In this document: positions 8,944 through 43,540 of the stretch, piece by piece | Position numbering within the stretch: position 1 is the first letter of the stretch | How the letters are laid out: each line of letters opens with the position of its first letter | Source: Coptis chinensis | Taxonomy: Eukaryota; Streptophyta; Magnoliopsida; Ranunculales; Ranunculaceae | Reading direction: 5' to 3' | Assembly (NCBI GenBank): GCA_015680905.1 | Contig: CM027381.1 | Location: forward strand, 86,329,501 to 86,393,500 | Length of the DNA: 64,000 nucleotides | Program-made: the position numbers and the translations under genes | The notes under the pieces: model-generated | What the model was told of the DNA's origin: nothing | Databases searched by the model: none | Seen by the model: the letters and a program-made list of their open reading frames with translations, nothing else

Positions 8944-11900
8944 TGTCACGCCCCGAGACCCAACACACATCCCGAGGATGAGGAGTGAATCTCGAGGCCG
9001 ACACCATCCCAATTCTAACGAAATTTCGGCAGAGTTTCCTTTGTTTTATCGGCGTTAGGTATACAAAAAAAACCTGTCATAACCTGGAAATCATATACTA
9101 CAACCTTCCAACAACCATATCTATATAAAACCAACCTTATACACAACAGTACATACATCCACCAAATGTTTAAGTGTAACTACTACTCAAATACATCAAA
9201 TATTACATCAAAATGAGCGAAGCTCTCTCTATACAACCAAAAGGAGCTAATTTCACCCTATACCACAAAATAACTTGACCCTGTCCCTCGTCAATCATAA
9301 GGAAATCCACCCAAATCCCCATAACCTTCCTCACTAGTGGTAGGGAAAGCCTCCTCCGCAACTGACTCGGCTGAAATGTTAATGTAGGATAAGCAAACAA
9401 CTATGCTCAGTAGAAACATACATAACCAATAAATAGTCTACTTATAGAAAACATTTAAAACATGCAGGGTTTCCATAATAATATCAAAATATCGTGACTA
9501 TATAATACATCACTAACTAGTAGAAATCCTTTCGAGATGCTTCGTTAATATTCAAAATATAGTTTTCACAATCATCATACAACTATTGTGGCCGCTGCAT
9601 CCTATTAGAATGGTGAGAATGCGGTAATTTTCGGTGATCCCAGGCATATCTCGGTTCGATTACTTTCGGTGTGAACCATGCACCGTTGTTTTCCTGATCT
9701 TACTGGCAGGGAGCTGAAATGCCGTTGTTGTGTTCGTACACACAAAATCCCCAAAGCTTTTAGGGCTCGGGTGGGCCTGTGACCACGACCCCCATAGGGT
9801 TGTCACCTAACTTCACGGTGGTCAACCGTTCGACGACTAGTAGATCGCTTTCGGGATCGACACACATCGAGGGAGTGGACTAAACTCTCTCCTCTGGCGT
9901 CTAAATCTCATCGAGGTAACATGTAACCTCACACAAGCTAAGCACCATACTGATTGTGACCGCGTTACAAACATGGTTATCTATAAAAGTAGAAAAGGAA
10001 TTCTGGACTACATCCGGTGATGCATCCTTTTAAAGGTGGCCCCACCACCTCGGCGGTGTACACCAGCGGTTGGAATCTTAGGCGTTTGCTGCGTCTCCGG
10101 ATATCGACAACAATTCCTTCTTTATAGGAATTCACAATTCCTTTTCTAAATCCCCTCGTGATAAGCATAGTAATATATATATATACTCGTATTACCGGTC
10201 ATTTCTAAATACTATAGATACATATTTAGTTTTTCTTTTAAAACTGTTGGTTCTATATGTGTGAGTTTCTAGATTTCCAACAATCGAGTAATGCAACCTA
10301 TGACTCCCAAACGGGCCAGTCATAGTAAATGACAACCGATGATTCCCAAACGGCGAATCATCGTAAATAACAACGAACCATCCGTGGAACAATTCAGAAC
10401 CTCACACATAGTTACAAACAATCGGGTAATCCTTACCCGTATTACAAAATCCATCTCTTTGTCTCCCTCTCGAAGGACAAGAGGCGAGAAACCCTTCCCA
10501 AAACCGGTTTTGCTCTTTTAACAAAGAAAATAAATCCCCGCTACCCAGATTTCTCGTAAAAACCATTTTCTAAAGCTATTCATATATTTATTTTATATCG
10601 GTAAATACAATGCAAAACATGAATATCACATATACATGCATGGTTGATACGCAAACTATCTTTCCCAATTTAAACGCAAACTATCTTTCCCAATTTAAAA
10701 CAATCAAATCATGCATGAAAATAAGCATGCTATATATTGGTATGTAAGTTCCTACCTTAGCAAGCTCCGTTCTCCTCAAGCCCACTTAACCGAATCGAGC
10801 CCACTTAACCGAATCCACTTTTATTTAACTCCTATAAAAGGCATATACACATAGGTTATTAGAATTTATCGAATCTAACGAGCGAAATTCTTATCTAACG
10901 TAAGTCGAGAAGAATCTCGACGCTAAGAGTCGGTTTCGGTAATTGTTCCTCTAACTCTGGTTAACAAAGCTCTGAGGCCATTCCTAGCAGTGTACCTCGG
11001 CCAGGTCTCCAAAGGGGTTATTTCCAGCCACTACCGCAGCCCTCACGCGTCAGCGCCAATCATATCACTTCCGATTATCAAGTGAGATTTTCCCAACTCA
11101 ACAACAACCAAGTCCACACCTTCAATTCACATTAATTTTAACAATCAAATCGGTGGGTGCTTTTTCTCCTCCACTCAATAATCAACATGAACTGCTCAAA
11201 ATGGAGTGAATAACAAAAATTCTTACTCAGTCAGTAGGAATCGCTCATTTAGCTTGCTTCTTCACCAATATTGCTCAACTCTAGCTTCTCCAAAGCTGCA
11301 TTTGCGCCGAAATTAAAACCCCTACCATTATTTTCAGTAATACATCACAAGCTATCGAAATAAGTTTAAAAATTTGTTTGAAATGAAATTAAACTCACCT
11401 TTCGCGGCGATATGACGAAATTCCAATCAATTTGAATCTTCACGCTTGGGTTTAGTGTTACTAAGGATCGGGTGTTTGAATTATTGGTCTTAATCGATGA
11501 AATTGGGGAGAATTGAGGATTCTCTCTCCTAGGTTTTTGAATAGTTGCGAAATTGGGGAAGAAGAATTGGGTGCGTTTTTTTGTGGTTGTGCGATTTGGT
11601 TGTTTTTGTCTTTACATGTTTAAGTTATCAAGGCCCAAGCCCAATATGACCAAATTGGGCTTAAAGTCCTAATTAACTTCTAACCACTAACTAATTTGAC
11701 TTAGCGTCGTAATTATTTTTCTGGCCCAAGCAGCTTAATTTAATTTCTTACATTCTATCCTACCGCAGGCTATAGCGATAACCCACTCATGCGTGCGTGT
11801 AAACTGTTAACTCGTCGTGCTCGAACGTAGAAAAGCCCGGTAACCGACATTTTGTCAAATTTTCGTATATGAGTTGCTTACCTAACGTGGCTTATGAGTC

Positions 11901-12024
11901 GGAGTTAAGTTTCATTAATTTATGTACGTTTGAAATGTAAACCCGACCAACCAATTACATAAATGTCCCTAGGTTTGCTATGTAATTTACTAAAATACCC
12001 TTAACAAGAATTTGAGTCTTTACA
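8944..12024 (-). repeat. 3' LTR of element D (intact copy)
   Basis: It runs from TGTCACGCCCCG to TCTTTACA on the plus strand, 3081 bases. Its ends match those of the right-hand copy at 17301 and 44069. It has an AT microsatellite near 10170 and no genes. On the minus strand its 3' end carries the conserved block GTTATGACAGG followed by GGAAACTCTGCCGAAA, common in chromovirus LTRs. Confidence 0.9.
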
Positions 12025-13710: not shown

Positions 13711-14852
13711 CTACCTCCTCGTCTCATATTCAAATCCTTCTGCAAAAACAAGTACTTGAGACTCTTGTGATCGAGAATATCTCAAATCTTTCACCATACA
13801 CATAATGTCTCCGGATCTTTTAAGGCATGAATAATCGCTGACTAACTCCAAGTCATGAGTAGGATAATTCTTCTCATGGGCATTCAATTGTCTTGACGAT
13901 ACGTTATCACTTGGCCTTCTTGCATTAAGACACATCCTAACCGGTGTTAGAGGCATCATTATAAATCACATAACTCTTTTCGGATCCGGAATAGTCAAAT
14001 CAAATTTGTTATCAATCGCGTCTTTAGCTCTTGGAAAGCTTTTTCGCATGCCTCCGTCCATTCAAACTTCACCTCTTTTCGTGTCAATCTAGTTAAGGAC
14101 GGACGCTATGCTAGAGAATCCTTCTACAAAGCGACGGTAATAACCTGCCAAATCCCCAAGAAATTTCCGATTGCAGATGATGTCGGTCTCGGCCAATTAT
14201 TCACTGCCTCTATCTTGGAACGATCAACTTTTATTCCATTCTCCGATACAACATGCCCTAAAAACCTCATCTCATTCAACCAGAACTCACATTTACTAAA
14301 TTTGGCATAAAGCTGATGATCAACTAAGGTTTGGAAAACAATCCTCAAGTGTTCCTTATGTTCAGCCCTAGTCTTGGAATAAATCAATATGTCATCTATG
14401 AATACGATAACAAATTGATCTAAGTATTTCCACATCACTTTCGATTCATGAGATCCATAAAATGCCATTTGGGCATTTGTCAAACCGAATGGTAACACCA
14501 AAAACTCAAAATGCCCTAACCGTGTTCGGAAAGCTGTCTTCTTTATATCTTCTTCTCGAATTCTCATCTGATGGTAGCCTGTTCTGAGATCTATTTTCGA
14601 GAAATACTTGGCACCCCTTAACTGATCGAATAAGTCATTGATCCTAGGCAACGGATATTTGTTCTTGATAGTCACATTATTCAGCTTTCGATAATCCACA
14701 CATAGCTGAAAAGACCCATCTTTCTTCTTCACAAATAACACTGGTGCTCCCCAAGGTGACTGACTTTCCCTTATAAACCCCAATCTTTTCAATTCATCTA
14801 ATTGGGACTTGAGTTCTCCCATTTCGAGAGGAGCCATTCGATAAGGAATCAT
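13711..14852 (-). pseudogene. Reverse transcriptase and RNase H region, element D
   Basis: It contains [49 protein letters not shown] and the active-site block [10 protein letters not shown], the standard reverse transcriptase motifs of plant Ty3/gypsy. Towards lower coordinates follow RNase H fragments with SSRQLNAHEKNYPTHDLEL. The strand and order (reverse transcriptase, RNase H, integrase) fit gypsy elements. It is a fossil with several breaks. Confidence 0.9.
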
Positions 14853-15988
14853 CGAAATAAATAGGCGTTCGGTAGTAGATCTATTACAAAATCTATCTCA
14901 CGCCAGGGAGGTAATCCCGGCAATGCATCTGGGAACACTGCCGCAAACTCACGAACCACGGGAACAAGCTCGGAAGATTCGAACTTCGGCCCTTGGAAAC
15001 GAAGACCAGCTAACAATCCGTATCTATCATACTTGAAGTCAGACTTGGCCTCCACAACTCGAGATACCGTATTTCTAATCCTCTTAAACATAAACTCTTG
15101 CTGTCTCGGTACTCTAAACGTCACCGTTTTTGCAAAACAATCTACATGGGCATGATACTTTCCTAACAAATCCATCCCTACTATGATATCGAAATCATTT
15201 AGGTCCATCACCGTTAGATCGACTATCATCTCCCTATCACCTATCTTTATCACACAATGGTGACAAACTTCAAAGAACATAGTTTTCTTCCCCAACGGAG
15301 TGGATAAAATAAGCTTCCTCCCGATGTTAACTACATCCAACCCCAGTATTGCTACCATATTTTTAGCAATGAAAGAATGAGTAGCACCCGTATCAAACAA
15401 GACATGCACCTTATGTGTAAACAAACATATCATACCTTCAACCACTTGATCGGTAGTGCTGATATCTGCCCCCATTGCATTATATACCGTGGCTTCCTCT
15501 TGGACTGATGCAGGATCCACAACTTCTTCCTCTGGCACTAGATAATACACCTTGCCATGTGGTCTCTGTTCCACCCCTGAATTGGACTTGGGACAAAACC
15601 GCCTGATATGCCCAGCTTCACCGCAACTATAACAAACCACACTCTCTCTCCCTGACTGTGTACTCTGTGGTATTACCGATTGCAATCTAGCTCTCTGACC
15701 CTGAGGCCTCAAATTCTGCACTGGTGATTTGGTCTGAGAAGGAGCAGGTACTCTCGGTGCCATCTGTGATCCACCCGTCGGTCTCATAACTGGTAGCCTC
15801 TGTGCTGGCCTAACCACATTCAAACCCCGTTGTACAGCTAGTGCCCTCCACTGTTGTGCCTGCTGGATGACCGGCCTATACATCTGTTGCAACCCGGAAC
15901 CACTGCCTTGATAAACCTGCCTCTTTCCCATATCCTGCCTGCCCTGAAATGTCGACTGTCTTACCCTTCCAACCTCTTGCCTCGGCAA
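14849..15988 (-). pseudogene. gag zinc knuckle and protease region, element D
   Basis: A glutamine- and proline-rich stretch leads to a CCHC knuckle CYSCGEAGHIRRFCPK, then to the aspartic protease site VLFDTGATHSFIA and the block DFDIIVGMDLL. It runs on towards the reverse transcriptase through [17 protein letters not shown]. This is the normal gag-protease junction of Tekay-like chromoviruses. It is the longest unbroken frame in the element. Confidence 0.88.
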
Positions 15989-16446
15989 TAATAAGCGATC
16001 ATCAACTCTTTCAATGCCTTTGAGCCCTTCTCACGCCTCAAGATAAGAATCGATCCGGAAGGACCGACATCTTGCTCTGCATATACGGTTTCAGCCCGTC
16101 AATGAATTTTCTAGCCTTAGCTTTTTACGTGGAAATCAACTCCTTCCCGTGATCGTGAAAGAAGAGCGGTGAATTTCTCTTTACGTCTTGTCCACGGTCG
16201 GGTTTCCTTGTTCCAATTTGAGGAATTCCATTAAACGCTAGCTTAGCTCGCCTCGGTAACATACCTCAAAAGGAAGAGTTCCTCAAATTTAGCCCAAGTC
16301 ATCGAAGCGTCTCCACATCCTTAACACGATCCACCCGGTGTTTGGCTTCACCTCTAAGCATGAAGGCAGCCAAAGTAACCGTTCCACATCGGTACACATC
16401 ATGGAGTCCAAAGATACTAGACATGTCTAACAACCAGCCTTCTTGG

Positions 16447-17300: not shown

Positions 17301-19324
17301 TGTCACGCCCCGAGACCCAACACACATCCCGAGGACGAGGGATGAATCTCGAGGCCGACACCATCCTAATTCTAACGAAATTTCGACAAAGTTTCCTTTG
17401 TTTTATCGACGTTCGTATACAAAAAAAACTTGTCATAACCTGGAAATCATATATTACAACCTTCCAACAACCATATCTATATAAAACCAAGCTTATACAC
17501 AACAGTATATACATCCACCAAATGTTTAAGTGTAACTGCTACTCAAATACATCAAGTATTACATCAAAATGACCGAAGCTCTCTCTATACAACCAAAAGG
17601 AGCTAATTTCACCGTATACCACAAAATAACTTGACCCTGTCCCTCGTCAAGCATAAGGAAATCCACCCAAATCCCCATAACCTTCCTCACTAGTGGTAGG
17701 AAAAGCCTCCTCCGCAACTGACTCGGCTGAAATGTTAATGTAGGATGAGCAAACAACTATGCCCAGTAGAAACGCACATAACCAATAAATAGTTTACTTA
17801 TAGAAAACATTTAAAACATGCAGGGTTTCCATAATAATATCAAAATATCGTGACTATATAATACATCACTAACTAGTAGAAATCCTTTCGACATGCTTCG
17901 TTAATATTCAAAATATAGTTTTCACAATCATCATACAACTATTATGGCCGCTGCATTCTATTAGAATGGTGAGGGTACGACTGGTACTCATCCTCAGTCA
18001 CAGACATATCTCGGTTCAGTACTTTCCAGTGTGAACCATGCACCGTTGTTTTCTTGATTTTACCGGTAGGGAGCTAAAATGTCGTTGTTGTGTTCGTACA
18101 CACAAAATCCCCAAAGCTTTTAGGGCTCAGGTGGGCCTTGTGACCACGACCCCATCTGCCGTCACCTAACTTACGGTGGTCAACCGTTCGACGATTGCAG
18201 GACTTTCGGGGATCGACACACATCCGAGTGGACTAAACTCTCACTTCGCGTCTAAACCTCATCGAGGTAACATGTAACCTCACACAAACTAAGCACCATA
18301 CATCGTGACACGTACAAACATGGTTATCTAGAAAAGTAAAAACGGAATTCCCGGACTACATCCAGTGATGCATCCTTTTAAAGGTAGCCCACCACCTCGA
18401 CAGGTGTACACCACAGTTGGAATCTAAAAGTTTAACGCCTCCGGAAATGCGACAACAGTTCCTTCTTTATAGGAATTCACAATTCCTTTTCTAAATCCCC
18501 TCGTGATAAGCAATATATATATATATATATATATACTCGTATTACCGGTCATTTCCAAATATTATAGATACATATTTAGTTTTTCTTTTAAAACTGTTGA
18601 TTCTGTATGTGTGAGTTCCTGGATTTCCAACAATCGAGTAATGCAACCTATGACTCCCAAACGGGCTAGTCATAGTAAATGACAACCGATGATTCCCAAA
18701 CGGCGAATCATCGTAAATAACAACAAACCATCCGTGGAACAATCCAGAACCTCACACATAGTTACAAACAACCGGGTAATCCTTACCCGTATTACAAAAT
18801 CCATCTCTCTATCTCCCTTACTGAGACAAGAGACGAGAACCCTTCCCAAAACCAGTTTTGCTCTTTTAACAAAGAAAATAAATCCCCGCTACCCAGATTT
18901 CGCAAAAACCATTTCACACGAAAGCTATTCATATATTTAGTTTATATCGAGTAAATACAATGCAAAACATGAATAACACATATACATGCATGGTTGATAC
19001 GCAAACTATCTTTCCCAATTTAAAACAATCAAATCATGCATGAAAATAAGAATGCTATATATGGTATGTAAGTTCCTACCTTAGCAAGCTCCGTTCTCCT
19101 CAAAGCCCACTTAACCGAATCGAGCCCGCTTAACCGAATCCACTCTTATTTAACTCCTATAACAGCATATACACATAGGTTATTAGAATTTATCGAACGA
19201 ACGCGAAATTCTTATCTAACGTAAGTCGAGAAGAATCTCGACGCTAAGAATTCGGTTTCAGGTAATTGTTTCTCTAACTACAGTTAACAAAGCTACAGGC
19301 CATTCCTAGCACTGTACCTCTGAC
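17301..19324 (-). repeat. 5' LTR of element D, first segment
   Basis: This is a copy of the LTR at 8944-12024, colinear with it up to about 11010. It ends in CCTCTGAC (19317-19324), the left copy of the 8-base duplication made by hAT element E. The LTR resumes at 32043. Confidence 0.9.
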
Positions 19325-19500
19325 CATAGTACAAAATATCGCGATATATCGCGATATATATCGAGATTTCAGAGAAGGGTAAATAAATATCGTGATACCA
19401 ATTTGGATAAAAACTAGTGCAAATATCAACGATTTTTGTTGATATTTCGCAATATTTCCACGATATGTGTGATTTATACGATATTTTTGGAGAGAATTGG
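19325..19500. repeat. Left terminal and subterminal repeats of hAT E
   Basis: The terminal repeat is followed by repeated short motifs built on ATATCG and CGATAT (for example near 19345, 19355, 19365, 19390, 19460 and 19480) in both orientations. Subterminal motif arrays of this kind are where hAT transposases bind. The same motif recurs at the right end. Confidence 0.75.
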
Positions 19501-19639
19501 GTGATTGCAAACTGACGAGGAAGAAGAAGAAAAGGGCTGGTGATTGCAAACCGACAAAGAAAAAAAAAAAGGCTACTACTACCCTCTCCCACGCGAGCTA
19601 CTCTATCTCCCACGCGAAATTTTGATGGCTATAAGCTCA

Positions 19640-19701
19640 TTCTTCTCCACTCTCGGTATCTTGCAGTGCTTGTGAAAATTCAATTGTAGAGCTCAATAAG
19701 G
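19640..19701 (+). other. Putative non-coding first exon of the hAT E transposase
   Basis: A pyrimidine-rich leader ends in AATAAG followed by GTAAGC, a strong plant splice donor near 19701. It lies just inside the left end and on the transposase strand. A non-coding first exon followed by a long intron would explain the 5 kb before the BED finger. This is inference from the splice-like signal and position only. Confidence 0.3.
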
Positions 19702-20399
19702 TAAGCTTTCTTGTCCCCTCCCATCCATGATTATTTGCTTCATGTATAACTTTCCAACTCTAAATACTGTTATTTGTTTTAGCACTCATTTAAAAGTTTG
19801 TTTTATTAATAGATTAGTAACTTAACTTCTCGATTCTTCTCTGTGAACTTTAAGCGTGTCTAGCATGATATTGCAAACTAGGGTCAAGTGAGGCTCTGAG
19901 AACTCTTTTCACTAGTAATAGTTTTCAAGTTTTCAAGGTTATCTTATTTTGGTAATTGGTCTCGACTAGAAATGTTCGCTCAAGTGAAATGTTTAGTTAG
20001 TGATTCGGTCCAAACAAACTTTAAACTTGACTTCATACTTGAAACCACGAAAGTACAAAGAAAAATAAAAATAATAAAAATAAAAGTACTACTAACACGT
20101 AAATAGAAATGGGCATACCATTTTCAAAGCGGGATCTTGGTTCGATTGATCGAACTACAACAAACTGGAACCTCGAACTTCGGGGTTGTGATTGATATAT
20201 GGCTCAAAAGTTATCTCAGAGAGAGCATTGTAACCATAATTGCTAGGAACCATTGCGTAGCCATTTTCAACCTTTGGTTCTTTGAAGGACAACCCCATAG
20301 ATACTTCTTTGAAAATTTCTCTGTTCACCTTCTTACCATTTTGATGAATGATAGGTTCCTTTCCTTTGAGTTTTTGGCGTGCTTGTGGTGAAACTGAGC

Positions 20400-21243
20400 T
20401 GGAGTTTGGTCTATTGGCCCTAGGACAAGAACTAGATGCCCTACGACATCACGCCTCATACTACTTTTGAGATGACGAGACATTGTCTTTTCCTTGCTCT
20501 CTGAAGTGGCTCCGATTCTTGAAACAGGCTTGAGTTCATTTACATCGATCTGGTATGAGTCCGAGGTGATTTAGGTTCATTTGTTTTGTCTCTAGACCAC
20601 AATCTAGATGAAGTAAGCTTTGGTTCATTGTTGTTTCCTCGTTCTCACGAAGTGGCTCATTTGTGAAACCGGACTTGCATTCTTTGTTATGAGTTTGAGA
20701 TATATTATATCCATTTTGTGTGTCCCTAGTAACCAATCCAGTGAAGAAGGCACAGGTCTCCGTAATCTTCCCTAGGAAAAGGCTGGGAAGATGCTATTTC
20801 CCTTTCCTCGACTCGGGACTACCGTGGAGTTACACCGACGATTGGAGAGGGTAACCACCGAGAATGTGAAGCTCGACTTTCTTGTTGTGTCGAATTTAAT
20901 TTCTTCGGTTGGCGTTCATAATCACTAGAACTCGGGATTCCTTCCTTTTCCTTGCTTCCTCCACTGATAACATCATGACCAAATAAGATTACTTACATTT
21001 CACTAAAGGCTGTAAAACAAGCCCAACAATTCACCACAAAAATGATATAAAAACAATAACCCCGATTTTTCCCATCTTCAAATATCACATCGGCAAGAAC
21101 TCTATAGTTTTCCTCTTCAATAGGTTCCCAGTTTTTATACACTTTCAATAAATTCTTCAATAATTGTTTTGATAGTCTTGTCATCAACCCTAGAGAGCTC
21201 TCATTTCAATAAATGTCTTTTTATGTCTTGGAACTTCTGCCAT
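20400..21243 (-). pseudogene. SUVR1/2-like WIYLD-domain gene fragment inside hAT E
   Basis: Read on the minus strand from ATG at 21243, the text is MAEVPRHKKTFIEMRAL, then, after frame changes, LSKQLLKNLLKVY and KNWEPIEEENYRVLADVIF. This closely follows the N-terminal WIYLD domain of the plant histone-lysine methyltransferases SUVR1, SUVR2 and SUVR4, where the segment reads in the style LKNLL-YEKNWELI-E-NYRVLADAIF. These proteins act on chromatin, and SUVR2 takes part in transcriptional silencing. Here the domain has at least two frame changes and a stop. The weaker remainder to about 20400 may be the variable linker. No SET domain is seen. It lies between the hAT ends, so it is a captured 5' gene fragment and not a resident gene. 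Confidence 0.7.
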
Positions 21244-21259
21244 CCCTGAACCAAATCAT

Positions 21260-24200
21260 TCAACAACCATAAAACCACCATTACTCACAAATGTAGTACT
21301 AATTGATTTCTTGAAAGTCGATGTATTAATAGCTAGGGTCGGATAACAATTGAGGCTTCGTGATTGTGGCATATATTATGACATATATATGTTAATTGCT
21401 TGTTTGAAAGCTTATGCATGGTTCCTAAGCGTTGTTAAAGTGATGAAAGAGCAAAGAAGCAGCTACACATAGCATGTTCGGGATACGCTTTTTGGTGCGT
21501 TAGATGAAATCATCATTTAGTTTGTAGCCTATACTATTTCTCATATTTGTACCCTATAATGGTTTTCAATGACTTAGAACTATATATGAAGGTCTTTTAG
21601 GTACAAAACTGATTTACTTGTACTGAATGGATGAGTTAGTAAATGGTGATATTTCGTAGTGCCAATGACCAAAATGTTGCATGCTGGTTCGGTTGTTGTA
21701 GCACTCCTTTAATGCCCAAGTAGTATGCTAGTTTGTCAAATGGTATTAGGCGGCATGTTTGTATCTACGTTAATTGTTGTTGTATATTTGTCTAGGGGTC
21801 CCTATAAATAGAGATGCATGATCTTTTTTTATTTTTTGTCTTTCTCATTTGTATATGAAGCTGGAGAAAGAACTGCCTCGCTGAAGAAGCTCTTGTTGGC
21901 CAGATTCAAGCAAAAATACAGGTTCCTAGAAGTGAGTCTACTTCAATATGATTAGATTTATGTTTTCGTATTGTTTTAAACCATGTTATTGTTGTTCAAC
22001 CATATAGCATTTCATTGAAGTGAGAATGTTATGTATGTCTTTTTTGGTAGACACCATTTGATGTGATAAATCCTTGAGAAAAATAGTTTTTGAACTCTTA
22101 AGAACATGCGCTTGTAGATCAGTGGATAGAGTGTTTGTTTGCTAAAAACAATTAACAAAAATGCATACATTCACTCTAACAATATATGCATATTGGTGAT
22201 GTTACTGGATATGGAGTATGTATGCGCTTCAGCATTATCTATTTTACATCTATTTCAACTTTCAACATGTTTTATATATCTTCTACCATTTCGCCGATTT
22301 CTTGAATATTCCTTAGATTTTATCCCTAAGTGCTTAATGCCAAACCTTCTCATATGCCACTAGCCACCATAGCAGTCCAGTTTCTGGTTTTGCAAGACCT
22401 GGTAGTAATCTCTGTGACTTGCGACGATAATATATATAGACTAGCGGATCCGTCAGCAATTCATGTATGCTGAGATGCTTAGGAGTACACTTCGCACCTA
22501 AGCAATTGGGCATAAAAGTTTGTTCTTATAATATATATAGACTAGCGGATCCATCGGCAATTCACTATAGTTTTCGTAGGGGCATTTATGATGGAATATA
22601 GGTATGACACTGACGATGTTTGTAAGAGAGGAGTTTTGATGGTAGCAAGGGAATGTACTGGAACTAGACTATTTCAATATATGTTGTCGGCAAGTGTAAT
22701 CTAGTAATTTGACAAGGGTAAGAAATAAGGTTCAAATATTCTCTATTCAATTCCAAGTGGAAATTAAATTGAGTTCTGGTTTCGAGTCTGTCCAGTGAAC
22801 TTCTTTTAAGGACCAATACCTAGTACGTACCAGTTTAGCGCATTTGAAGATTTCATCATTCCTAATATGTTTTGTCAAATACAGTGATGGAATATTAGAA
22901 ATAGACGTAGTGGTGGAAGAAATTTTGTCTTTATATAATATTTCTCCATTTTTTGTGTTTGGTCAAGACTGTAACATAAAAAAATGCAAGTTGTATAGAG
23001 TTAAACTGAAAGGGATAATTTGCATTTGAAGACATTACGATTAGGGTCTCTTTCATTCTTTTAAATTGCAAGTTGTCTTTTCATTTAAATACTTACAATC
23101 CTCTACTAAAAAGCTTCTCAAGTAAGTCAAGTCGCTACTCATACCCGGGACGAGTCATAGCCGACTTGCACCGGCGACCACGGATATCAAACTCCACCAT
23201 ATATAAAGTTTTTTATGTCGAAATGCAGCAGAGGGATCATCTACTTTTTGTTTGTTTTTTTTTTCTACCAATCAATATATATTTGAGTAGTTGGGTACTT
23301 GGGTTTATGAGGTATGAGGTTTTAATATATGTTATGGAAGTATATTATTTGATTTTCAAGTTATGACAGGTTTTAAATTTATGAAATGTTGAAAATACAA
23401 AGGAAACTCTCTGCTTTTTTTTTAGAATGTGATGTTAAGTGGTGGTTTTATATTTGAGTTATGTATATCATAAGATATTTTGTATTCTTGAAGTCATCTA
23501 GAAGAGGATTGTACCCGTCTTTGCTCCTTGTCTTTGAGGGTAGAGCAAACTCTTCCATGAACTCTTCCTTGTCTTTTGTACAAGTATGTTCTCAGTGGTT
23601 GCTTGTTTTTCTATTTTGCAGCATAAACACAGCTGAAAACTTAGTTGTTGCGCTCTAGGTACGTCGTGTTGTCTCAGTGGTTTGTTCTTCTCCCACTTTT
23701 GGTTGTTGCGCACTAGGTATGTCGTGTTTTTTTTTTCCAGCAAATATCAATTTTTCTAGTATTTTGAGTAAGAAAGGGAATAATTCAAATAACCTGTTCA
23801 TTGTTGGTGCAGTAGTGGAGTTTGATTTGCAGTAGTGGAGTTTGATTTGTAGTAGTGGAGTTGGCTTCTGATTCTCTTGAGGTAAAACTTCTACCCATTT
23901 CGTATACTAGTTTTATTTGTTACTTGTTGTTTTTTGCAACAATTGAAATTGTGGGTGTTTGTATACATATAAGGGATATGTTTTGTTTGTGTGCCATAAA
24001 GTCATTTGGTTTGTATATTAGGTAGTGTTAAGATTTATTCTTGGTTTAGTTATCAAGTGTGCAGGTTATATGTTTTTTATATTTTATTTGCGCATGACTT
24101 TAAATTAATTTGAATGGCTAATGTAATTTAACTTGGTATTCAGATTCTATGGATAAACTGATAGTTATAGAATTTATGTTTGTCTTTTTGTTGTCTTTTT

Positions 24201-24840
24201 TTTTTTTTTGTCCTTTTATTATTATTATTATTATTATTTTTTACTATATAAGTATTTTAGGCATAATACAGGTGGTCAAAAATTTGAATAAACAAAAGAA
24301 ACTCTGTCAAAATATTTTTAGCTCTTTTGTTTTATAAACAAGCAAGTTAGTGTTAAAATATAATGCAATGGTAAAATTGTCTAAATAATTTATACCGTTA
24401 TTTCTAAGTACAGGGAAGATATGATTAGCATTGGTAGAGGCATGAATATTAGAATTAGATGTAGGAAAAGCGCCCGACACAGTTAAGGCAACATTGGAAT
24501 ATCAATAAAAGTACACAGTTAGCATTGGAATATTCTTGATATCACTCAAAGTACAGTTTGGTTCCAGAACACGGTGCACCTACGGGTGATCTGAGAGTTC
24601 TTACTTGTTTAAAGATTGGTTAATTCCGATCACAAGCCCGGATGCCGGTTTCAAACTTGACTGTAATTGTTTGATATTGTTAATATTTGGATGTTTGACT
24701 ACTAGAATTAAATGTAGAAAAAGTGTCAGATACAGTTAAGGCAACATTGAATTTGAGTTATAGGACCAATGACTTGATCCATGTATCTTTAAATAGGAAT
24801 CATCAAATTTAATTATGTTTTGGTTTGATGTATATATTAA
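21260..24840 (+). other. Non-coding interior of hAT E before the transposase
   Basis: I see no convincing gene. The stretch has T-rich, intron-like composition and several local duplications. A block beginning AGACTAGCGGATCC recurs at 22439 and 22539. A unit of about 20 bases with GCAGTAGTGGAGTTTG repeats three times near 23810-23866. GTTGTTGCGC plus following bases recurs at 23643 and 23702, and CAGTTAAGGCAACATTG recurs near 24480 and 24736. At 23350-23415 there is a fragment resembling the conserved 3' block of chromovirus LTRs. The most likely reading is long transposase introns with old inserted fragments. Confidence 0.4.
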
Positions 24841-24860
24841 ATTATTCTCGTTTGTGATAA

Positions 24861-27800
24861 ATGAGGATAGAAATGCCAAAGGGATTTGATATTGGGTGGG
24901 ACCACGCTATCCGTATCCCTGGAAATAAAAACGGGACACAGTGCAAATACTGTGACAAGATTTTAGCTGGAGGTGGCATTACAATGCTGAAAGTACATCT
25001 TGGTGGAGGGAACAAAAATGTTGAGAAATGTTTGAAGTGTGGAAAGGAAATTCGAGACATGTTCTGACAAATAATTGAGTCCGGAATTGAGAAGAGAAAT
25101 GGAAAAAAGATAGCTGAAGAACATTATAGAGCTGTCATGTATGCACACCCTCCTGGAGAAGACTCAGACGAGGATGATAACAAGTTCAAGATGGCACGAC
25201 AACAATCTAGGAATGAGTACCAGAGGTTCTGCGAGATGGGCTCGTGGGATAAGAGGGCTTCAACCAGAGAGAACACCAATGTTGCAAGCACAAGCTCTCG
25301 CAAAGGCAAAGGTCTTATGTCTCTCTTCTCCCGTTCGAAGAGCACTAGGCATCCCGAGCTTATTGATGTCGATTCGCCGAGAAAGCCTGATGTTAATCAA
25401 CCATCTGTCCACCAGATGACTCCAGCTGGTAAGTCAAAAGCTGGGGTGTTTAGAACAGCTGTGGCTAGATTTGTACTTTGGGGAAACTTGTCTCCAAATG
25501 CAGTGGCCAACAACCCGTATTACAAGCCGATGTTCGATGAGGCATGTCGCGCCGGTCTTGGAGTGACCCCTCCTTCAGCCTATCAACTACTAAATTCAGA
25601 GTTGCAGAGGCTTAAGGCAGAGTGCAAATTGTATATTGACCATATGAAAATAAAATGGTCTACATATGGTGTCACCGTTATGTGTGATAACGGATCTGTC
25701 CAACGCAATGATTCTTGATGAACTTCATGGTGTATTGTGATGGGCTCATGACTTTTGATTCGATCCATTGATCTATCGAAACACAAGAAAGATCACCGCC
25801 ACTTCATCAAAACACATGAGACGCGTGTTGTTGACAAGGTTGGCAAGGAGAATGTTGTTGATTGTAACGGACAACGGGCTTAATTTTAAGAAAGTTGGAG
25901 AGATGCTTGCAAGAGAAAATGGTATACTTAAAAATAAGTTTTATTCTCCAATTTTAGATTCCTTTTGCAAATAGGTTTTTGTATGAACCGCCTACTAAAC
26001 TACTTCATGTACAATAGGGTATAACCTTTTCGACCCCATGCCGCTCATTCTATAGACCTTATCTTGAAAGAATTTTTCGAGCCCCATTGACGAAAAGCAA
26101 TCCTTGATCGGTGAAGGATATCACGCCTTTCATTTATAACCACTCTCGAAGTTGTTTCCCTTATGAGGGAAGTGTGTGGTGGAGACTTAGTCCGAAATGG
26201 GTCCAACTAGATTTGCTAGTAATTACATGGCATTGAAAAGTTTGTTTCAAGAAAAAGAACAAGCTCCGGTCAATGTTTACTTCGAAGGATATCTTGAAAT
26301 CAAGAATGATAATCCTACGGTCCGGATGATGATGGTCGAGGATATTATAAACGAACCGGAGAATTTTGGCAGAATGTGAAGCGGGATTGTAGTCGTATTA
26401 TAACCCATTGTGGTTTTATTGCGGAAGGTGGATAGGGATGATAAACCGACCATGCCATTTTTACACGTGATGGGTAGAAATAACAATTGAGCAAGTTGGG
26501 AGGAAGATTCGTCACTTTGAATGGATTGTTGGAATCATTAAGAGGAGGTGGAACAACCAATTGGGGCACCCATTACACAAAGTTTGGTAATATTTTTGTT
26601 AACTCGAGGTTTATTTAATTGTACCATAAGCGTTGTAAGCTAATATGCTACAAATTTGCTTGTAGCACACTACTTTAATCCCCGCCGTAATTTACGGCCC
26701 CGATAGTGAAAATGTTGCATACAATGGGGAGTTCCTCTCGAATGCAGATAGTCATTAACCAATTGATCCCAAACCTATCGATCAATTGGCTTGCTTAAAT
26801 GAATGTAAAGCTTATCGAGAGGCTTCGGGGTATTCTCTGCCAATTCTTGTATATGGAAGAACCAAAGTCATGCCGGGTTAGTTTCATTGTTAACCCACTA
26901 CTTAACTTGTAATCCACCTATTTTAGTTTTAGTCCATACAAAATTATATAATATGGTCTACATTGTTTGTCATCGACGCAAACTGATTGGTGGATGAATG
27001 TTGAAGACGGTTATGTCGACCACTTGAAAAACGTTAGCTATACACGGATCCTCTCACAAACTACCTCATCATCCGGATGTGAGAGGAATTGGAGCATGTT
27101 TGGATTCATACACTCGACAAAACGTTGTAACTTCGAGAACCGAAGTCTGGAGGGAGGATCGAAGTCTTTGTCCACTACAACCTTCGACCGAAAAGCAAGC
27201 ATGTCCAACTAAAGAACCAATTCAAGAAGAGAAGAAGATCTTGGACCTCACATCATTGTACCGGTCGATAATGACTCGGACCATCCTATTTTATTGGATC
27301 GATGACAGAGAGAGAACCCCTGAGGCATTATTAGATGAAAGCGGTCGTCCTAATTCATACATTGCAGAGCAATCTGGTGTGCCAATAGATGGAAATTGGG
27401 AACCTGTTCCGAATCCCAATCCTGAGGATAACTTTGAAGCAGCTCAATCTCCTAATGACACTCAACTTGATGGTGAAACATATTATGATCCTGATGCATG
27501 GAGAATGCCTAGTGATGGGGAGCACGATAATGCTTACAATCTTGTTGATGACGATAACGATAGCGATGATGATGATCATCATCATGCTCAAGTTCGTGCC
27601 AGTGGTCCTAGTCGAGGAGGTGGTGGTGGTCGTGGAGATGGTAGTGGTCCGAAGTCGAAAGGTGGTGGTGGTCCCCCCGGTTTTGATGATGATCATGCTC
27701 AAGTTTGTGCTAGTGGTCAAAGTCGAGGAGGTGGTGGTGGTCGTGGAGATGGCTGTGGTCCGAGTCGAGTAGGTGGTGGTGGTCCTCCAGGTTTTGATGG

Positions 27801-28796
27801 TAATGATGGGGTTCAGTCACAACAACCTAGAGTTTCCATTGGTGGTGGTGTTGGGTCACAACGGGTGATAGCACCAAGGTCACAAAGAGAGGGTGGGTGG
27901 GTCAATCAATGCAGATCAAAGGGATGGATCCTCACAACAATCAAGGGGCTGGTCCTCACAGCGCCCACCAAGTGGTAGGGTGGATGCACTATTGTTGGGT
28001 CTCAACAAGCAACGGGGTGGTTCCTCAGCAAAGTCTTGAAGTGATAATAGAGGAGTATACTTTACTGAAGAGGATGGGTTTGACCATGCAACTCAAGACT
28101 CTGACCATGGGGCTTCCGCCCAACGAGGATCTCGTCAAAGAAAAGGTCGACAAAGGAGAGCAGATCCTACACAGGGCACGGACTCTAGCAATTGTTTTTA
28201 TGGGCAAGGGTCGTCTACTGGGGTCGAGATGTCTGTGGACTCGTTGGCGGGCCAATTTGGAGGATTGTTTTCTTACGATAAGCCTTATGGATATTCTTCT
28301 ACTGGTTCAAATATGGTTGAATATTCTACAGACTCTTCATATCGCTTAATCCTCCGAAGAATATTCACATTCTCAATATTATGGGAATTGGAATGATCCT
28401 CAAGCATACTCTCATCGCTTCCACCTATGCTACTTCTTTCTGAACAATATCGTCCCTCAAATTTTATGGAGATTGGAATGCTCCATCTCGAAAGTATTCC
28501 CATGAATCTACATTTGTGCTACCTTCGGAACAATATGCACCTCCTCGCCATTCTTATGGAGGACGGAATGAAAGGACCAAAGTATGGAAGATGTTCAGCC
28601 ATTCTCGGACCATAGTGTGGACATGCCTCCACCTGCATGGGGAACTGTATGGGAACCTCCGAGTCGACCCGTTGTTGAGGAAACTGGGTATCCGATTATT
28701 GGTTACCTTCAATTGTGTGGCAAGAACTTGGATCAGTCAGCGTATGACTTGTACGTGGAAAACTTTAAGAATTGGTTCGGCCAAACCCTCACTTAG
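24861..28796 (+). pseudogene. Decayed hAT transposase with BED zinc finger
   Basis: The first segment reads GFDIGWDHAIRIPGNKNGTQ, then CKYCDKIL and a later H and C: a BED-type DNA-binding finger with its C-x2-C pair. An in-frame TGA at 25065-25067 is followed by the continuing frame (IIESGIEKRNGKK to about 25718). That frame includes NPYYKPMFDEACRAGLGVTPPSAYQL, given here as NPYYKPMFDEACRAG and VTPPSAYQLL, the entry to the DUF659 region. After several frameshifts come VTDNGLNFKKVGEML, GPTRFASNYMALKSLF and the dimerisation (hATC) text TTSSSGCERNWSMFGFIHS near 27063-27115. The C-terminal tail is acidic and glycine-rich, with a tandem repeat of about 115 bases at 27580-27810. At least six disruptions make it non-functional. 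Confidence 0.85.
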
Positions 28797-28896
28797 AACC
28801 AGTATTGTAATGATTTTCTTTTTGAATCGGCATTACATGGTGTCAAAGGCATACAAGAAGGTCGCAAATCATTCTGGCAGTAGTATTCTTTGTAAT

Positions 28897-29019
28897 GGTT
28901 TGGAGTGTCATCCTCTGTTGGTTTGGAATAAAGTCAAAGTGTTTTTGTATTGGCTGTCAGTTTTTTATCATGTTTAATGGTTTGGAGTGTCAGCCTCTCT
29001 GTTGGTTTTGAATAAAGTT
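28897..29019 (+). repeat. Tandem duplication (about 82 bases) at the end of the transposase gene
   Basis: GGTTTGGAGTGTCA followed by CCTCTGTTGG and GAATAAAG occurs at about 28897 and again at about 28979, slightly diverged. Both copies carry an AATAAAG-like polyadenylation motif. The second copy ends just before the extra terminal repeat at 29025. Confidence 0.7.
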
Positions 29020-29024
29020 TGAGT

Positions 29025-29042
29025 CATAGTACAAAATATCGC
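29025..29042 (+). repeat. Extra internal copy of the hAT E left terminal repeat
   Basis: CATAGTACAAAATATCGC matches the left end at 19325 over 18 bases in the same orientation. It lies where transposase sequence gives way to captured host sequence. The 8 bases before it (GTTTGAGT) do not match the 8 bases after the right end (CCTCTGAC), so 29025-32042 did not insert here as a separate unit with a surviving duplication. Confidence 0.85.
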
Positions 29043-29109
29043 TCTGTTTTGTGAGTTCTTTATGTCTATGGATTAGTTGTAATTGTTATGTTTTTGGTGA
29101 GCCACTTAG

Positions 29110-29590
29110 ATCTTGAAGAAAAATGTAGAGCTCCATGCAGCTTCAGAATGCCGTAGTAATTGTTCTGGTAAGAAAACAATAATCTTCCTATGGGGTTTTA
29201 TTTGTTTTAATTAAGCCGAGTGTCTAGTAACAAAAGGAAGCTATATTGATAAGCTTTGTCTTTGATGGACACTTGTACTTAGGATTGGCAGCAGAGAAGC
29301 TAGAATGGGGAGATGACAATCATATAAAACAAATTTCAGATCAGTATCCAGGGGGATTTGATCTGGTTCTTGGAGCTGATATTTATATCCTTCAATTTCA
29401 TATGTTTTCTTCTTAATGTAGTGTTGGGCTTGCTTATTTCTTAGTTACAATTGCATCTTTTTGAATTTCTTGACGCATTGTACGCTTTCAACAGCATAGC
29501 ATCTCTCCACTTTTTGATAGTGTGAACCAACTTTTCCGCCTCAGAGAAGTAAACTGCTGCAAGTTCAAGCTTATGTTTCTCGAGCTAAGA
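29110..29590 (+). pseudogene. METTL21-like lysine methyltransferase gene fragment captured in hAT E
   Basis: Three exon-like pieces line up with the C-terminal half of plant METTL21-type protein methyltransferases. Exon 29110-29167 gives ILKKNVELHAASE. Exon 29283-29384 gives LAAEKLEWGDDNHI and GGFDLVLGADI, the last matching the post-Rossmann DLVLGADIY motif. Exon 29484 to about 29588 gives FQQHSISPLFDSVNQLFR and, after one frameshift, AYVSRAK. Intron one is GT-AG. Intron two runs from ATATCCTT (29385) to TTGTAC (29483), the form of a U12 AT-AC intron. The N-terminal half with the SAM-binding G-rich loop, and the last exon, are absent. The family catalyses SAM-dependent lysine methylation of proteins such as chaperones. 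The presence of introns shows capture from genomic DNA, not from mRNA. Confidence 0.75.
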
Positions 29591-29599
29591 GGTGAGTGA

Positions 29600-30480
29600 A
29601 GATGCTTACTCGTTGTGTAATTATGACTCTGTTCACAACCTGTAACCAAAGGTCTTATAATTTGTAGTTATCCTGATTTTACTCTTGCCGCGCGTGTCTT
29701 GTTGCTCTTGATTGATGCCCCCACATTACTTGCTTATCCCTTAAGGATTCTATTAGCTTATCAACCTTATTTTAACTTCTAAGAGTAGCTATCTTGAAAT
29801 CTATAGGTTTGTTTCTTAAAATCTATAGCTTGTCTTGAAAGAATTACCTTTCCAGCTCACATATGTTATTCACTTATTTGACTTGCTTTCTTCAATTCTT
29901 AATCTAGCTAGTTTATCATTTCATATGCGTTTGGAATTGTGGAAATCAGCATAAGTAGAAAGTCGTAACAATTTTGAAATTTTATTCCTCTACTTTGAGC
30001 CCTGAGGTGAGTTGAACCAAGCTGTTCCTTCCTCTAGTTAGCTTGAATTTGTTGATATTTGATTCGAGGGTTGGTTACTTGACTTAACTGGCACTAGTCG
30101 AGATGGTTAAGTAGCCGGTTATCTTAATCGATTATATCTTTAGTAGTTAGGTGTAGTTTTATTGGATTTCCAAGTTATGACAGGATTTAAGTTTATGAAA
30201 TGTCGAAAATCTGAGAGGAAACTCGCCAAAATTTTTGTAGGATTTTTCCGTCTCTGTGTAGTTTGGGTTTTGCTTAGTTGGTCTGTATCACATCCTGAGT
30301 TTTGTAATAATTGTAGATGCCACGTGTCTTTGGTATTCAGTGACTGTTTTATTGTTTGATTGTTTTATTGTTATCTTCGTTCTCTTATCTCTTATCTCTC
30401 TGGAAATGCTAGGGCTAGTTGTTCTTGTGTGTGCGCATCTGTACTGAAGATTCATACATGAATGAATCATCATAAGAAAA
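29600..30480 (+). other. Non-coding spacer within hAT E with an LTR fragment
   Basis: No gene is recognised. Positions 30165-30250 (TTCCAAGTTATGACAGG, then GGAAACTCGCCAAAATTT) resemble the conserved 3' block of Tekay-type LTRs, also present in element D. An old chromovirus LTR fragment is therefore likely embedded here. The rest is AT-rich and may include intron of the captured methyltransferase gene. Confidence 0.4.
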
Positions 30481-30508
30481 GATGATGAAATCAGTCTAAG
30501 CAGAAAAG

Positions 30509-31144
30509 ATGATGAAATCGGTCTCAGCAGAAAACGTCTCTGAAATCAATGGGAGTTATATTGATAAAAGCATGGGAATAATGATGGTCAATGGTCCGAA
30601 CGAGACGATGGGTAAGGTTCTAGAGTCCTTGCAAGAGGCAAAGGATCATGATCATAGAAAAGGAGAGGATCTTCTTGATTCAGTGTTGTTTGTTGGGAAG
30701 TACTTGGCGGAATCACCTTTTGCCTGCATGCTAAAGGCTCTAGATCTTCTCGAGTACCTTCTTTCCATCAAGGGTGAGGATGAACCAAGACCATTCTATT
30801 CTGTTTTATTTATGCTTCCCCTATTGTCTCAAATAACAACCTCTATTGAAGGATGTAAAATCCTGGCTTCAACCAAAGGGCTGCAATATGTTGTAGATTG
30901 CCTGATCAAGATGATGGATGCGGTTTATGGCAGTGATGGGGAGGATACTAGTGGGAGCATGGTTTTGGCAAGTGATGTAATTGAACACATCCTATTGACA
31001 ACTGATGAAGTGGATTGGAGTTGTGTTGGTCGTCTCCTGAAGACGTTAGAGTGTTGGATAGACTCTATAGGCGAGGCATCTATGGACATCAGGGTTGCAG
31101 GCCTTCACGCCTCATCATGGATTCAATCACAACAGAAGATCTAA
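30509..31144 (+). CDS. Unrecognised 211-residue open frame carried by hAT E
   Basis: I do not recognise this protein. The frame is open from an ATG at 30509 to TAA and is intronless. The ATG context contains a small duplication of GATGATGAAATC. The protein looks alpha-helical, with leucine-rich helices such as MLKALDLLEYLLSIK and FYSVLFMLPLLSQI. It has an acidic loop around GSDGEDTSG and ends VAGLHASSWIQSQQ. The helix pattern is compatible with an ARM/HEAT-like repeat protein, but this is only a structural guess. No signal peptide or membrane segment is evident. It lies between the hAT ends and follows the methyltransferase fragment, so it may be a captured exon or a retrogene. Codon structure is intact, unlike the neighbouring fragments, so it could be recent or under selection. 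Confidence 0.45.
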   Translation: MMKSVSAENVSEINGSYIDKSMGIMMVNGPNETMGKVLESLQEAKDHDHRKGEDLLDSVLFVGKYLAESPFACMLKALDLLEYLLSIKGEDEPRPFYSVLFMLPLLSQITTSIEGCKILASTKGLQYVVDCLIKMMDAVYGSDGEDTSGSMVLASDVIEHILLTTDEVDWSCVGRLLKTLECWIDSIGEASMDIRVAGLHASSWIQSQQKI

Positions 31145-31340
31145 TAGATGCGATATGAGATTGAACATTTCGGTGCAAAGTACAACAAGTATTGTAATAT
31201 GTAGAAAAAATTCAAGATTCATTGTTAAAGAATGAAAAGTCAATGTAATATGTAGGAATTCCGAGGTGTATTTTTTGAGTATTAGAGAGTAATTTATATT
31301 AAAAGTATGATCGTGAGGGAATAATATATTTATATATATT

Positions 31341-31775
31341 ATGCGTGTCCAACACGAATCAGGAAAACTCATGGAAGATCGTTATAACATAACACCTTGT
31401 CTAGAATGAGGTGATAATCTCCAGGACTCATGATAGATCGTTACAACATAACACCTCGTCCAGAACGAGGTGACAACCTGGCACATGCACGCAACGGGCA
31501 GTAACGCTCAACATAGCTGTGTTAGTTAAAGTCGTAGCATCTGTCGCGCTTATAAATACACTGTCTAAAAGCTCATTTATTCTCATCAAGACAGGGACTT
31601 GAGCTGACAGAGGAAAGGGGGGAACAATGTCTGACTTGATTCAAGTTCATCACAAAATCTTGATATGTAGGCAGCTCGTCCCAAAGCGAGCTCAATCAAA
31701 ACTCGACCCATCACAATCTTCTCCATTATTCACACTTGTAAGGACTGATCAAATTCAACCTTTATAATTACCACA
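31341..31775 (+). repeat. Possible Tat-type LTR fragment inside hAT E
   Basis: The stretch has a TATA-like element (TATAAATA near 31551), then ACTTGATTCAAGTTC and GATATGTAGGCAGCTCG. This recalls the CTTGAT-ACGTAGGCA block found in the LTRs of elements F (33353-33398) and A (near 49645-49680). A repeated AACATAACACCT with CAGAACGAGGTGA also occurs twice (31387 and 31446). No paired LTR, coding region or target duplication was found, so its limits are uncertain. Confidence 0.35.
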
Positions 31776-31789
31776 TTCAAAGAAAATAT

Positions 31790-32042
31790 AGATATTTATC
31801 GATATTTGTTGATATTTGTCGATATTTGTCGATATATCACGATATATCCACGATATTTGCAGTCATAAATACCCACACATAGTCTGTGGATATTTATCGA
31901 TATTTATTGATATATCTCGATATATCCACGATATTTACAGATGCCCAAATGTAATATATCCCCATACAGGGGGATATATCCACGATACATATCCATAAAT
32001 CAGAGGTCGATATTTTGCCATATCCCGATATTTTGTACTATG
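31790..32042. repeat. Right subterminal and terminal repeats of hAT E
   Basis: Many units of GATATTTATCGATATTT and GATATATCCACGATATTT type lie between 31790 and 31990, partly as two copies of about 110 bases around TACCCACACATAG and CCCATACAGG. The terminal repeat CGATATTTTGTACTATG closes the element. The motif family matches the left end. Confidence 0.8.
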
Positions 32043-33018
32043 CCTCTGACAAGTCTCCGCAGGCTATTTCCAGCCACTGCAGGCCCTCACGTCAACGCCA
32101 ATCATATTACTTCCACTAACAAGTGAGATTTTTCCCAACTCCAACAACAACCAAGTCCACACCTTCAATTCACAATAATTTTAACAATAAAATCGGTGGG
32201 TGCTTCTTCTCCTCCACTCAATAATCAACATGAACTGCTCAAAATGGAGTGAATAACAAAAATTTTACTCACCAAGAGGGAATCGGCTCCTTTAGCTTGC
32301 TTCTTCACCAATATTGCTCAACTCTAGCTTCTCCAAACATATCATCGAAATTAAAACCCCTACCATTATTTTCAGTAGAATACATCACAAGCTATGAAAT
32401 AAGTTTAAAAATTTGTTTGAAATGAAATTAAACTCACCTTTCGCTTGGCGATAATGACCTAAATTCCAATCAATTTGAATCTTCACGCTTGGGTTTAGTG
32501 TTACTAAGGATCGGGTGTTTGAATTCTTGGTCTTAATCAATGAAATTGGGGAGAATTGAGGATTCTCTCTCCTAGGTTTTTGAATAGTTGCAAAATTGGG
32601 GAAGAAGAATTGGGTGCGTTTTTTTGTGGTTGTGCGATTTGGTTGTTTTTGTCTTTACATGTTTAAGTTATCAAGGCCCAAGCCCAATATGACCAAATTA
32701 GGTTTAAAGTCCTAATTAACTTCTAACCACTAACTAATTTGACTTAGCGTCATAATTATTTTTCCGGCCCAACCAGCTTAATTTAATTTCCTACATTCTT
32801 TCCCACCGCAGGCTATAACAATAACCCACTCATGCGTGTAAACTGTTAACTCGTGCCAGCTTCAAACGCAGAAAAGCCGCTAACCGACATTGTTGTCAAA
32901 TTTTCGTATATGAGTTGCTTACCTAATGTGGCTTATGAGTCGGAGTTAAGTTTCATTAATTTATGTACGTTTGAAATGTAATCCCGACCGACTAATTACA
33001 TAAATGTCCCTAGGTTTG
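32043..33018 (-). repeat. 5' LTR of element D, second segment
   Basis: It begins with the right copy of the 8-base duplication CCTCTGAC and continues the LTR where it left off at 19324, colinear with 11010-11985 of the left LTR. It ends in GTTTG (33014-33018), the left copy of the duplication made by element F. Confidence 0.9.
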
Positions 33019-33501
33019 TGTTTCGACCCCCACCTACGTGGCAAACGTCCATTGGTAGGAGTCTCCACTTTATTCGTTTAATCGACAGGGCTAAAGCCCA
33101 ATTCGCGAATATCATGGATCAAAGTACAGACCATTAACTCATGTGTCTAAAGGTGAACCTTAGCCACATGGCTTTTGCCACTAATGTACATTGATTTATG
33201 TCCAGATTCATTTCTTATCAAAGAGATAATTATCAGTTGAAAGTTATAGTCTATCACAATTGCTCAAGCTACAAGATTACTTGAGCTGCAAGGACTCTCT
33301 ACTCTACCTATATAAATACAAAACTATTTTTCATTCAGAACTACGTTCTTGAGACTTGATCCCATCGATAATTTGGGTACGTAGGCAACCGCAAGGTACA
33401 GTCTCATCATTCCCCCGATCACCATCATTTTTCTAATTACTTTTCTACGTTCTTCGTCTTTTCATCAACACTTGGTGTTTTGATCATATTTGGTCGAAAC
33501 A
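33019..33501 (+). repeat. 5' LTR of element F
   Basis: It starts TGTTTCGACC and ends GGTCGAAACA, with inverted ends TGTTTCGACC/GGTCGAAACA. It contains a TATA-like TATAAATAC near 33310 and the GGGTACGTAGGCAACC block common to Tat LTRs. It is followed at once by TAATTGGCGCCGTC. Confidence 0.9.
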
Positions 33502-39723: not shown

Positions 39724-39902
39724 GATTTTAGTTGTGTTTTTCCGCTATCCCCGAGAAATAAAATAATACAATATTTAGTTTGTTTCCAGTTCAGGCATGT
39801 ATTTTCCGTTGTTATCTTTGCATTTTTAAGACTTCGGTAATCAATAAAGAAGCAGCTTATTTCACCGGGCCCAATGGTATGATTTTGGTTTTATTAACCT
39901 TA

Positions 39903-43527: not shown

Positions 43528-43540
43528 AAAGAGGGGGCGG
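43528..43540 (+). other. Polypurine tract of element F
   Basis: AAAGAGGGGGCGG lies directly before the 3' LTR at 43541, the expected plus-strand primer site. Confidence 0.85.

Follow-up and report, generated by a model that had tools for sequence, protein, structure and literature searches.

Structure of the Element

The 64,000-nucleotide stretch of Coptis chinensis DNA analyzed here (the window, C5:86329501-86393500; the genome searched comprises 935.6 Mb in 116 contigs) contains a 12.7 kb hAT element at positions 19325-32042 that holds pieces of separate host genes. Its borders, as the first-pass annotation had proposed for one hAT unit, are given by a 5' terminal inverted repeat, CATAGTACAAAATATCGCGATAT (19325-19347, plus strand), of which 22 of 23 bp pair with the 3' terminal inverted repeat at 32020-32042 (minus strand), and by the target-site duplication CCTCTGAC, which can be read directly on the left (19317-19324) and on the right (32043-32050). 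Terminal inverted repeats of hAT elements are short, with A as their second and G as their fifth base, and the end of the present element (CATAG...) follows this pattern. Pack-MULEs are flanked by 9-bp duplications and usually have long terminal repeats, and Helitrons have neither target duplications nor terminal inverted repeats; with its 8-bp duplications and short, paired inverted ends the element conforms to neither type.

The expectation that other elements share both ends was borne out. When the window element was compared with 15 relatives that had been fetched in full or in part, both ends were located in 15 of the 16, the window included, and 12 of these 15 are flanked by a perfect 8-bp duplication that is different in every case. 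In the relative C2_43.25 the duplication agrees at 7 of 8 positions, no 8-bp duplication is present at C8_29.77 and C6_42.44 (both element ends located), and the 3' end of C6_17.63 was not found within its fetched sequence. A sister unit at C1:48192547-48205196 matches the window element from end to end with 93.6 % identity and has its own duplication, GTCAGAAT. Upstream of this sister unit (L027/L028, C1:48.2 Mb), at a distance of approximately 0.1-0.5 kb from its 5' end, is a stretch of ~390 bp in which both ends recur as diverged copies.

The three gene pieces listed by the first-pass annotation are all present, but a decayed hAT transposase region had been overlooked (~24861-28800, plus strand, edges approximate). 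It contains a BED finger above the Pfam cut-off (zf-BED, PF02892, E 5.5e-8) and weak matches below it to DUF659 (17.6 bits, cut-off 34.7) and the hAT dimerization domain (Dimer_Tnp_hAT, 14.3 bits, cut-off 21.4), and is scattered over short, interrupted frames. A 193-residue piece of it has at least 150 matches in the genome (best 150 of 278 candidates). As this decayed transposase lies inside the unit, the latter appears to represent a decayed transposase-bearing element with cargo rather than a bare pack element.

Captured Host-Gene Pieces and Their Donors

The SUVR-type fragment (19865-21303, minus strand) was correctly recognized beforehand as a first-exon region and comprises WIYLD exon 1 (ATG at 21243; PF10440, E 3e-12), an intron, and exon 2. 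It is 94.7 % identical, intron included, to its donor at C4:99715878-99717316; judged by eye, stops and frameshifts disrupt the window piece and both exons are open in the C4 gene. The donor continues with a Pre-SET match at C4:99714405-99714836, which follows ~2.25 kb downstream in the same orientation. The captured part stops before it, at C4:99715878, and thus has no Pre-SET/SET catalytic part. At least five element copies carry this piece (the window, C3 24.84 Mb, C1 77.15, C1 48.20, and C6 17.63); they end at the identical two donor positions, which points to one capture, and are 94.7-96.3 % identical to the donor. No match to the terminal repeat within 3 substitutions was found in 3.2 kb of the C4 donor stretch. 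The match at C4:99717089 had been considered as a further element copy of the SUVR piece, but was rejected in favor of the donor gene on account of the downstream Pre-SET, the open exons, and the missing terminal-repeat match.

The METTL21-type fragment (29045-29790, plus strand) indeed retains three exons with introns, as described earlier, and is 94.4 % identical to the host gene at C8:95104423-95105169. Taken alone, the piece matches PF10294 weakly (E 0.064), whereas the C8 donor peptide, spliced by eye, does so with E 3.8e-18 and finds METTL21A in the PDB with E 5e-11. Again judged by eye, the C8 gene extends past the captured part in both directions with additional exons, among them the SAM-binding (S-adenosylmethionine-binding) ELGSGVG exon upstream and a last exon. 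The captured piece is devoid of the SAM-binding exon, and a 4-bp deletion in its third exon causes a frameshift in the window. Among three copies compared, the right breakpoint is identical and the left one agrees within 2 bp; ~3 kb of the C8 donor stretch yielded no terminal-repeat match within 3 substitutions. The first-pass annotation had emphasized that two methyltransferase genes were captured. The catalytic core is in neither piece, and this theme carries little weight, as the SUVR piece ends ahead of Pre-SET and the METTL21 piece is frameshifted and lacks the SAM-binding exon.

The third piece, formerly an intact frame of unknown nature, is an open frame on the plus strand (30509-31144; homology to a host gene on C6 extends over ~30536-31149), but it can be identified as a piece of the neurochondrin C terminus (PF05536, E 4.2e-17, 62.2 bits with a cut-off of 22), covering profile positions 334-519 of 605 only. 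In the window its last codons are in a different frame from most intact copies. The best non-element relatives among the matches listed are a pair of host genes on C6 (94.51 and 94.61 Mb), to which the piece shows 54 % amino acid identity over 179 residues and 68 % nucleotide identity. Both of these genes consist of a single open frame with 556 codons, and they are 99.3 % alike over a compared length of 1001 bp. A multi-exon neurochondrin paralogue at C3:11549600 may be the closer relative. Parent genes with further exons, as the first-pass annotation had anticipated, could be identified for SUVR and METTL21 but not for neurochondrin. Ahead of the neurochondrin piece, a 190-bp stretch (30058-30247) is single in the window and a tandem pair in 11 of 12 shorter relatives.

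The earlier statement that one hAT holds pieces of separate host genes is therefore upheld: the donors of two pieces reside on C4 and C8, the nearest non-element relatives of the third, neurochondrin, on C6, and a single ancestral locus holding the gene pieces together was not found. Acquisition of the pieces apparently took place on separate occasions. Since the SUVR and METTL21 pieces keep introns, DNA was copied rather than mRNA.

Insertion Site and Nested Copies

The element interrupts a long terminal repeat (LTR) of an LTR retrotransposon (17301-33018, minus strand; ~3 kb without the insert), whose partner LTR lies at 8944-11977 and is 91-93 % alike. An empty site had been suggested as a test in a related accession; paralogous empty sites were found within this genome. 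For this purpose both flanks were fused with one CCTCTGAC into a 333-bp query, and the best 40 of 684 candidates were scored. As many as 38 span the joined junction (the top one with 97 % over 333 bp), with the window's partner LTR being one of them, and the two remaining matches are the window's own interrupted halves. These uninterrupted LTR copies are paralogous empty sites for the insertion and, together with the interrupted LTR of the window, show that the hAT jumped into a pre-existing retrotransposon LTR.

Searches for the individual pieces revealed a nested series of copies. The METTL21 block (29020-30057; best 40 of 44 candidates, matches merged by eye) occurs at at least 40 merged places, at least 25 of them whole and 15 partial. 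Neurochondrin lies within 4 kb at all 25 whole-block places and at 14 of the 15 partial ones, the exception being the C8 donor. Neurochondrin itself (best 150 of 183 candidates, merged by eye, after removal of five host-gene matches: C6 twice, C3:11550164, C38, and C101) was found at at least 101 distinct places, of which 62 have no METTL21 block within 5 kb among the matches listed. A transposase match lies within 12 kb at 22 of the 25 whole-block places and 17-18 kb away at the other three; at C2:20.93 Mb, the transposase occurs without the METTL21 block. These nested copies suggest stepwise capture followed by transposition of the assembled unit.

Two relatives (L025 and L026, C2 51.44 and 75.44 Mb) contain a fourth captured host gene, a piece of a proteasome beta subunit (PF00227, E 2.4e-15; best PDB chain 7qve_p, E 1.2e-36). 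Six frames taken from the middle of relatives gave a Pfam match above cut-off for this piece only. It is present at 10 merged places, six of which sit 2.5-4.1 kb ahead of a same-strand transposase match, i. e., on the same side of the transposase as SUVR in the window. The sequence at C5:57780561-57780892, which matches the proteasome piece with 66-86 %, may be a host gene.

A Model of Stepwise Capture

Taken together, these findings make it very probable that a hAT of a transposase-bearing lineage acquired its pieces of unlinked host genes stepwise, after which the whole unit was mobilized by cut-and-paste. Neurochondrin would have been captured first, METTL21 next, and SUVR last, an order that fits both the nesting and the divergences from the host genes. 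Breaks in or at the element may have been repaired by copying with template switching, which could thereby have brought in host DNA. The cargo would be mostly passenger DNA, and the window copy would need transposase in trans, its own transposase frames being interrupted.

Sequence at several junctions bears on this mechanism. At 29025-29042 (plus strand), 18 bp identical to the 5' terminus of the element separate the transposase side from the METTL21 donor sequence, and may have been left there by template switching. In the copy L077, stretches of 33, 41, and 31 bp copied from other parts of the element replace the sequence corresponding to window 29115-29577. Short filler of this kind, in the terminus copy as in the L077 patchwork, is what template-switching repair would be expected to leave. 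A further candidate for templated filler is a short duplicate of 30159-30224 at 23345-23410 (plus strand). The window element contains eight self-matches, some of them ordinary tandem or subterminal repeats, as compared to none in 50 Markov controls.

The same 18 bp can be read differently. A shorter element of the same family, with its 5' end at 29025 and beginning CATAGTACAAAATATCGCTCTG, might have inserted next to the transposase gene; joint movement of the outermost ends of both elements would then have enclosed METTL21 and neurochondrin. Joint mobilization of neighboring insertions has been proposed for Pack-TYPE elements (PMC8903248), and the terminus copy is exact and in the same orientation. 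However, a mere 18 bp of end sequence precede the METTL21 DNA, and the whole-block matches (within the best 40 of 44 candidates) start 5 bp before the terminus copy in 23 of 25 cases, 3 bp before it in one, inside or after it in one, and exactly at it in none. Furthermore, the 8 bp preceding the terminus copy, GTTTGAGT, are not repeated past the 3' end, and the filler of L077 derives from non-terminal parts as well. We therefore consider co-mobilization rather unlikely.

Several observations nevertheless weigh against stepwise capture by repair of a transposase-bearing hAT. The neurochondrin donor was not found in this genome, where the best non-element host genes remain at the modest identities given above, and the C-terminal domains of the transposase score under the Pfam cut-offs. 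Filler was not recognized at the SUVR junctions, where microhomology cannot be judged, so that the repair signature is confined to some junctions. Several partial METTL21-block places keep only the end of the piece, and the nesting may in part be due to METTL21 and SUVR having been lost secondarily, and not to the order of gain. Lastly, the neurochondrin and METTL21 places are best-scoring subsets merged by eye, with ends checked in a minority.

Evolution of the Neurochondrin Frame

How the neurochondrin frame evolved was assessed with 37 copies (three partial copies and a duplicate of the window dropped) against shuffled mutations in 2000 simulations. Relative to the shuffled expectation, the ratio of nonsynonymous to synonymous changes is 1.09 for 335 distinct changes and 1.20 for 199 singletons; for the 72 changes shared by at least three copies it is 0.77, and 401 of the 2000 simulations were as low. 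Stops number 7 as compared to 14.4 expected (33 of 2000 simulations as low), with many copies having been fetched for their long frames. Change of the frame among the copies thus looks neutral. A pairwise dN/dS of 0.58 (24 entries, the window counted twice) had at first resembled selection, but this value came from copies with long open frames only and took no account of mutation bias; the signal disappeared in the shuffled control.

On the other hand, the consensus frame is open despite ~192 differences from the host gene in 606 nucleotides. Neutral decay over half of these differences would predict ~4 stops and ~18 frameshifts (~22 disabling changes). Constraint hence seems to have acted before amplification, either while the sequence was part of a donor gene or in an element ancestral to the copies.

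With the proteasome piece in mind, one may imagine a hAT family with interchangeable cargo positions, holding SUVR or proteasome beta before the transposase and METTL21 plus neurochondrin after it. Selection would have maintained the neurochondrin frame as an element-borne gene in an ancestral mobile copy of this family, until it was released to drift; as a whole this scenario appears improbable. Little credit can likewise be given to the view that neurochondrin was a working transposon gene, selected on the ancestral mobile element and aiding element or host. The open consensus frame would speak for it, but the changes among the copies look neutral, and a donor gene could just as well have been under this constraint prior to capture. 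That an element already carrying neurochondrin entered the genome from another plant lineage would explain the missing donor and the contrast between 54 % amino acid identity for neurochondrin and ~92-96 % nucleotide identity for SUVR and METTL21 to their respective host genes, but is likewise improbable, as a lost or diverged host paralogue accounts for the missing donor equally well.

Surroundings of the Element

Between the two LTRs, minus-strand frames at 14127-16030 resemble gypsy-type pol by eye. A direct repeat of 489 bp (33018-33501 and 43540-44017, 94 % alike, 10 kb apart) starts at the end of the interrupted LTR and possibly represents the ends of another inserted element. A tandem array with units ~80 % alike occupies 39900-40743. 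Outside the hAT, two open frames on the plus strand, at 58150-60735 (862 codons) and 55067-55669 (201 codons), are possibly host genes.

Comparison with Known Systems

The uptake of host DNA by cut-and-paste transposons is still debated. In the present genome, two captures are resolved down to the individual base, together with donors, shared breakpoints, retained introns, self-copied filler, and empty sites. The nested copy series should allow the order of capture to be reconstructed, and two models of capture, gap repair with template switching and co-mobilization of neighbors, become directly comparable.

The first-pass annotation had regarded gene capture as less often described for hAT elements than for Pack-MULEs and Helitrons, which underrates the literature (PMC2528002, PMC3260210, PMC8903248, PMC6710886). 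Literature searches combining neurochondrin, transposon, and plant returned nothing related, and those combining Coptis, gene capture, and transposon returned nothing. The Hatvine-6 elements of grapevine are reported as a hAT family of similar ends and transposase, in which the rest of the sequence frequently corresponds to exons and introns of genes and also to non-genic sequence (PMC2528002). For the Coptis element, donors, breakpoints, nesting, and empty sites are resolved, and several gene pieces occur in one unit.

Pack-hAT elements, annotated chiefly in maize, likewise combine hAT ends and 8-bp duplications with captured coding fragments and amplified clusters (PMC8903248). The Pack-TYPE trait of host-gene fragments between terminal repeats is present in the Coptis element (C4 and C8 donors, neurochondrin homology); Pack-TYPE elements are, however, defined in that account as non-autonomous, whereas this cargo-bearing unit includes a decayed transposase region (PMC8903248). 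The maize hAT elements Ds2 and Ds-l4 are comparable in containing filler DNA as well as captured fragments with retained introns, some without a donor found; the report counts gene fragments in two Ds2 and nine Ds-l4 elements out of 903 in total, and Ds-l4 differs in its modal length of ~1 kb (PMC3260210).

Further afield, a hAT of Pseudocercospora fijiensis has captured and amplified the host gene for histone H3, but this case is fungal and involves one gene, with hundreds of copies inactivated by repeat-induced point mutation (PMC6710886). For the Pack-TIRs of metazoans, gap filling with template switching has been proposed as the capture mechanism, as it is here; these are animal elements, and in that report the mechanism is proposed mainly for single-copy cases (PMC8277862). 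Gene capture by hAT elements has thus already been published for grapevine, maize, and fungi, and the Coptis element is an unusually well-resolved case of it.

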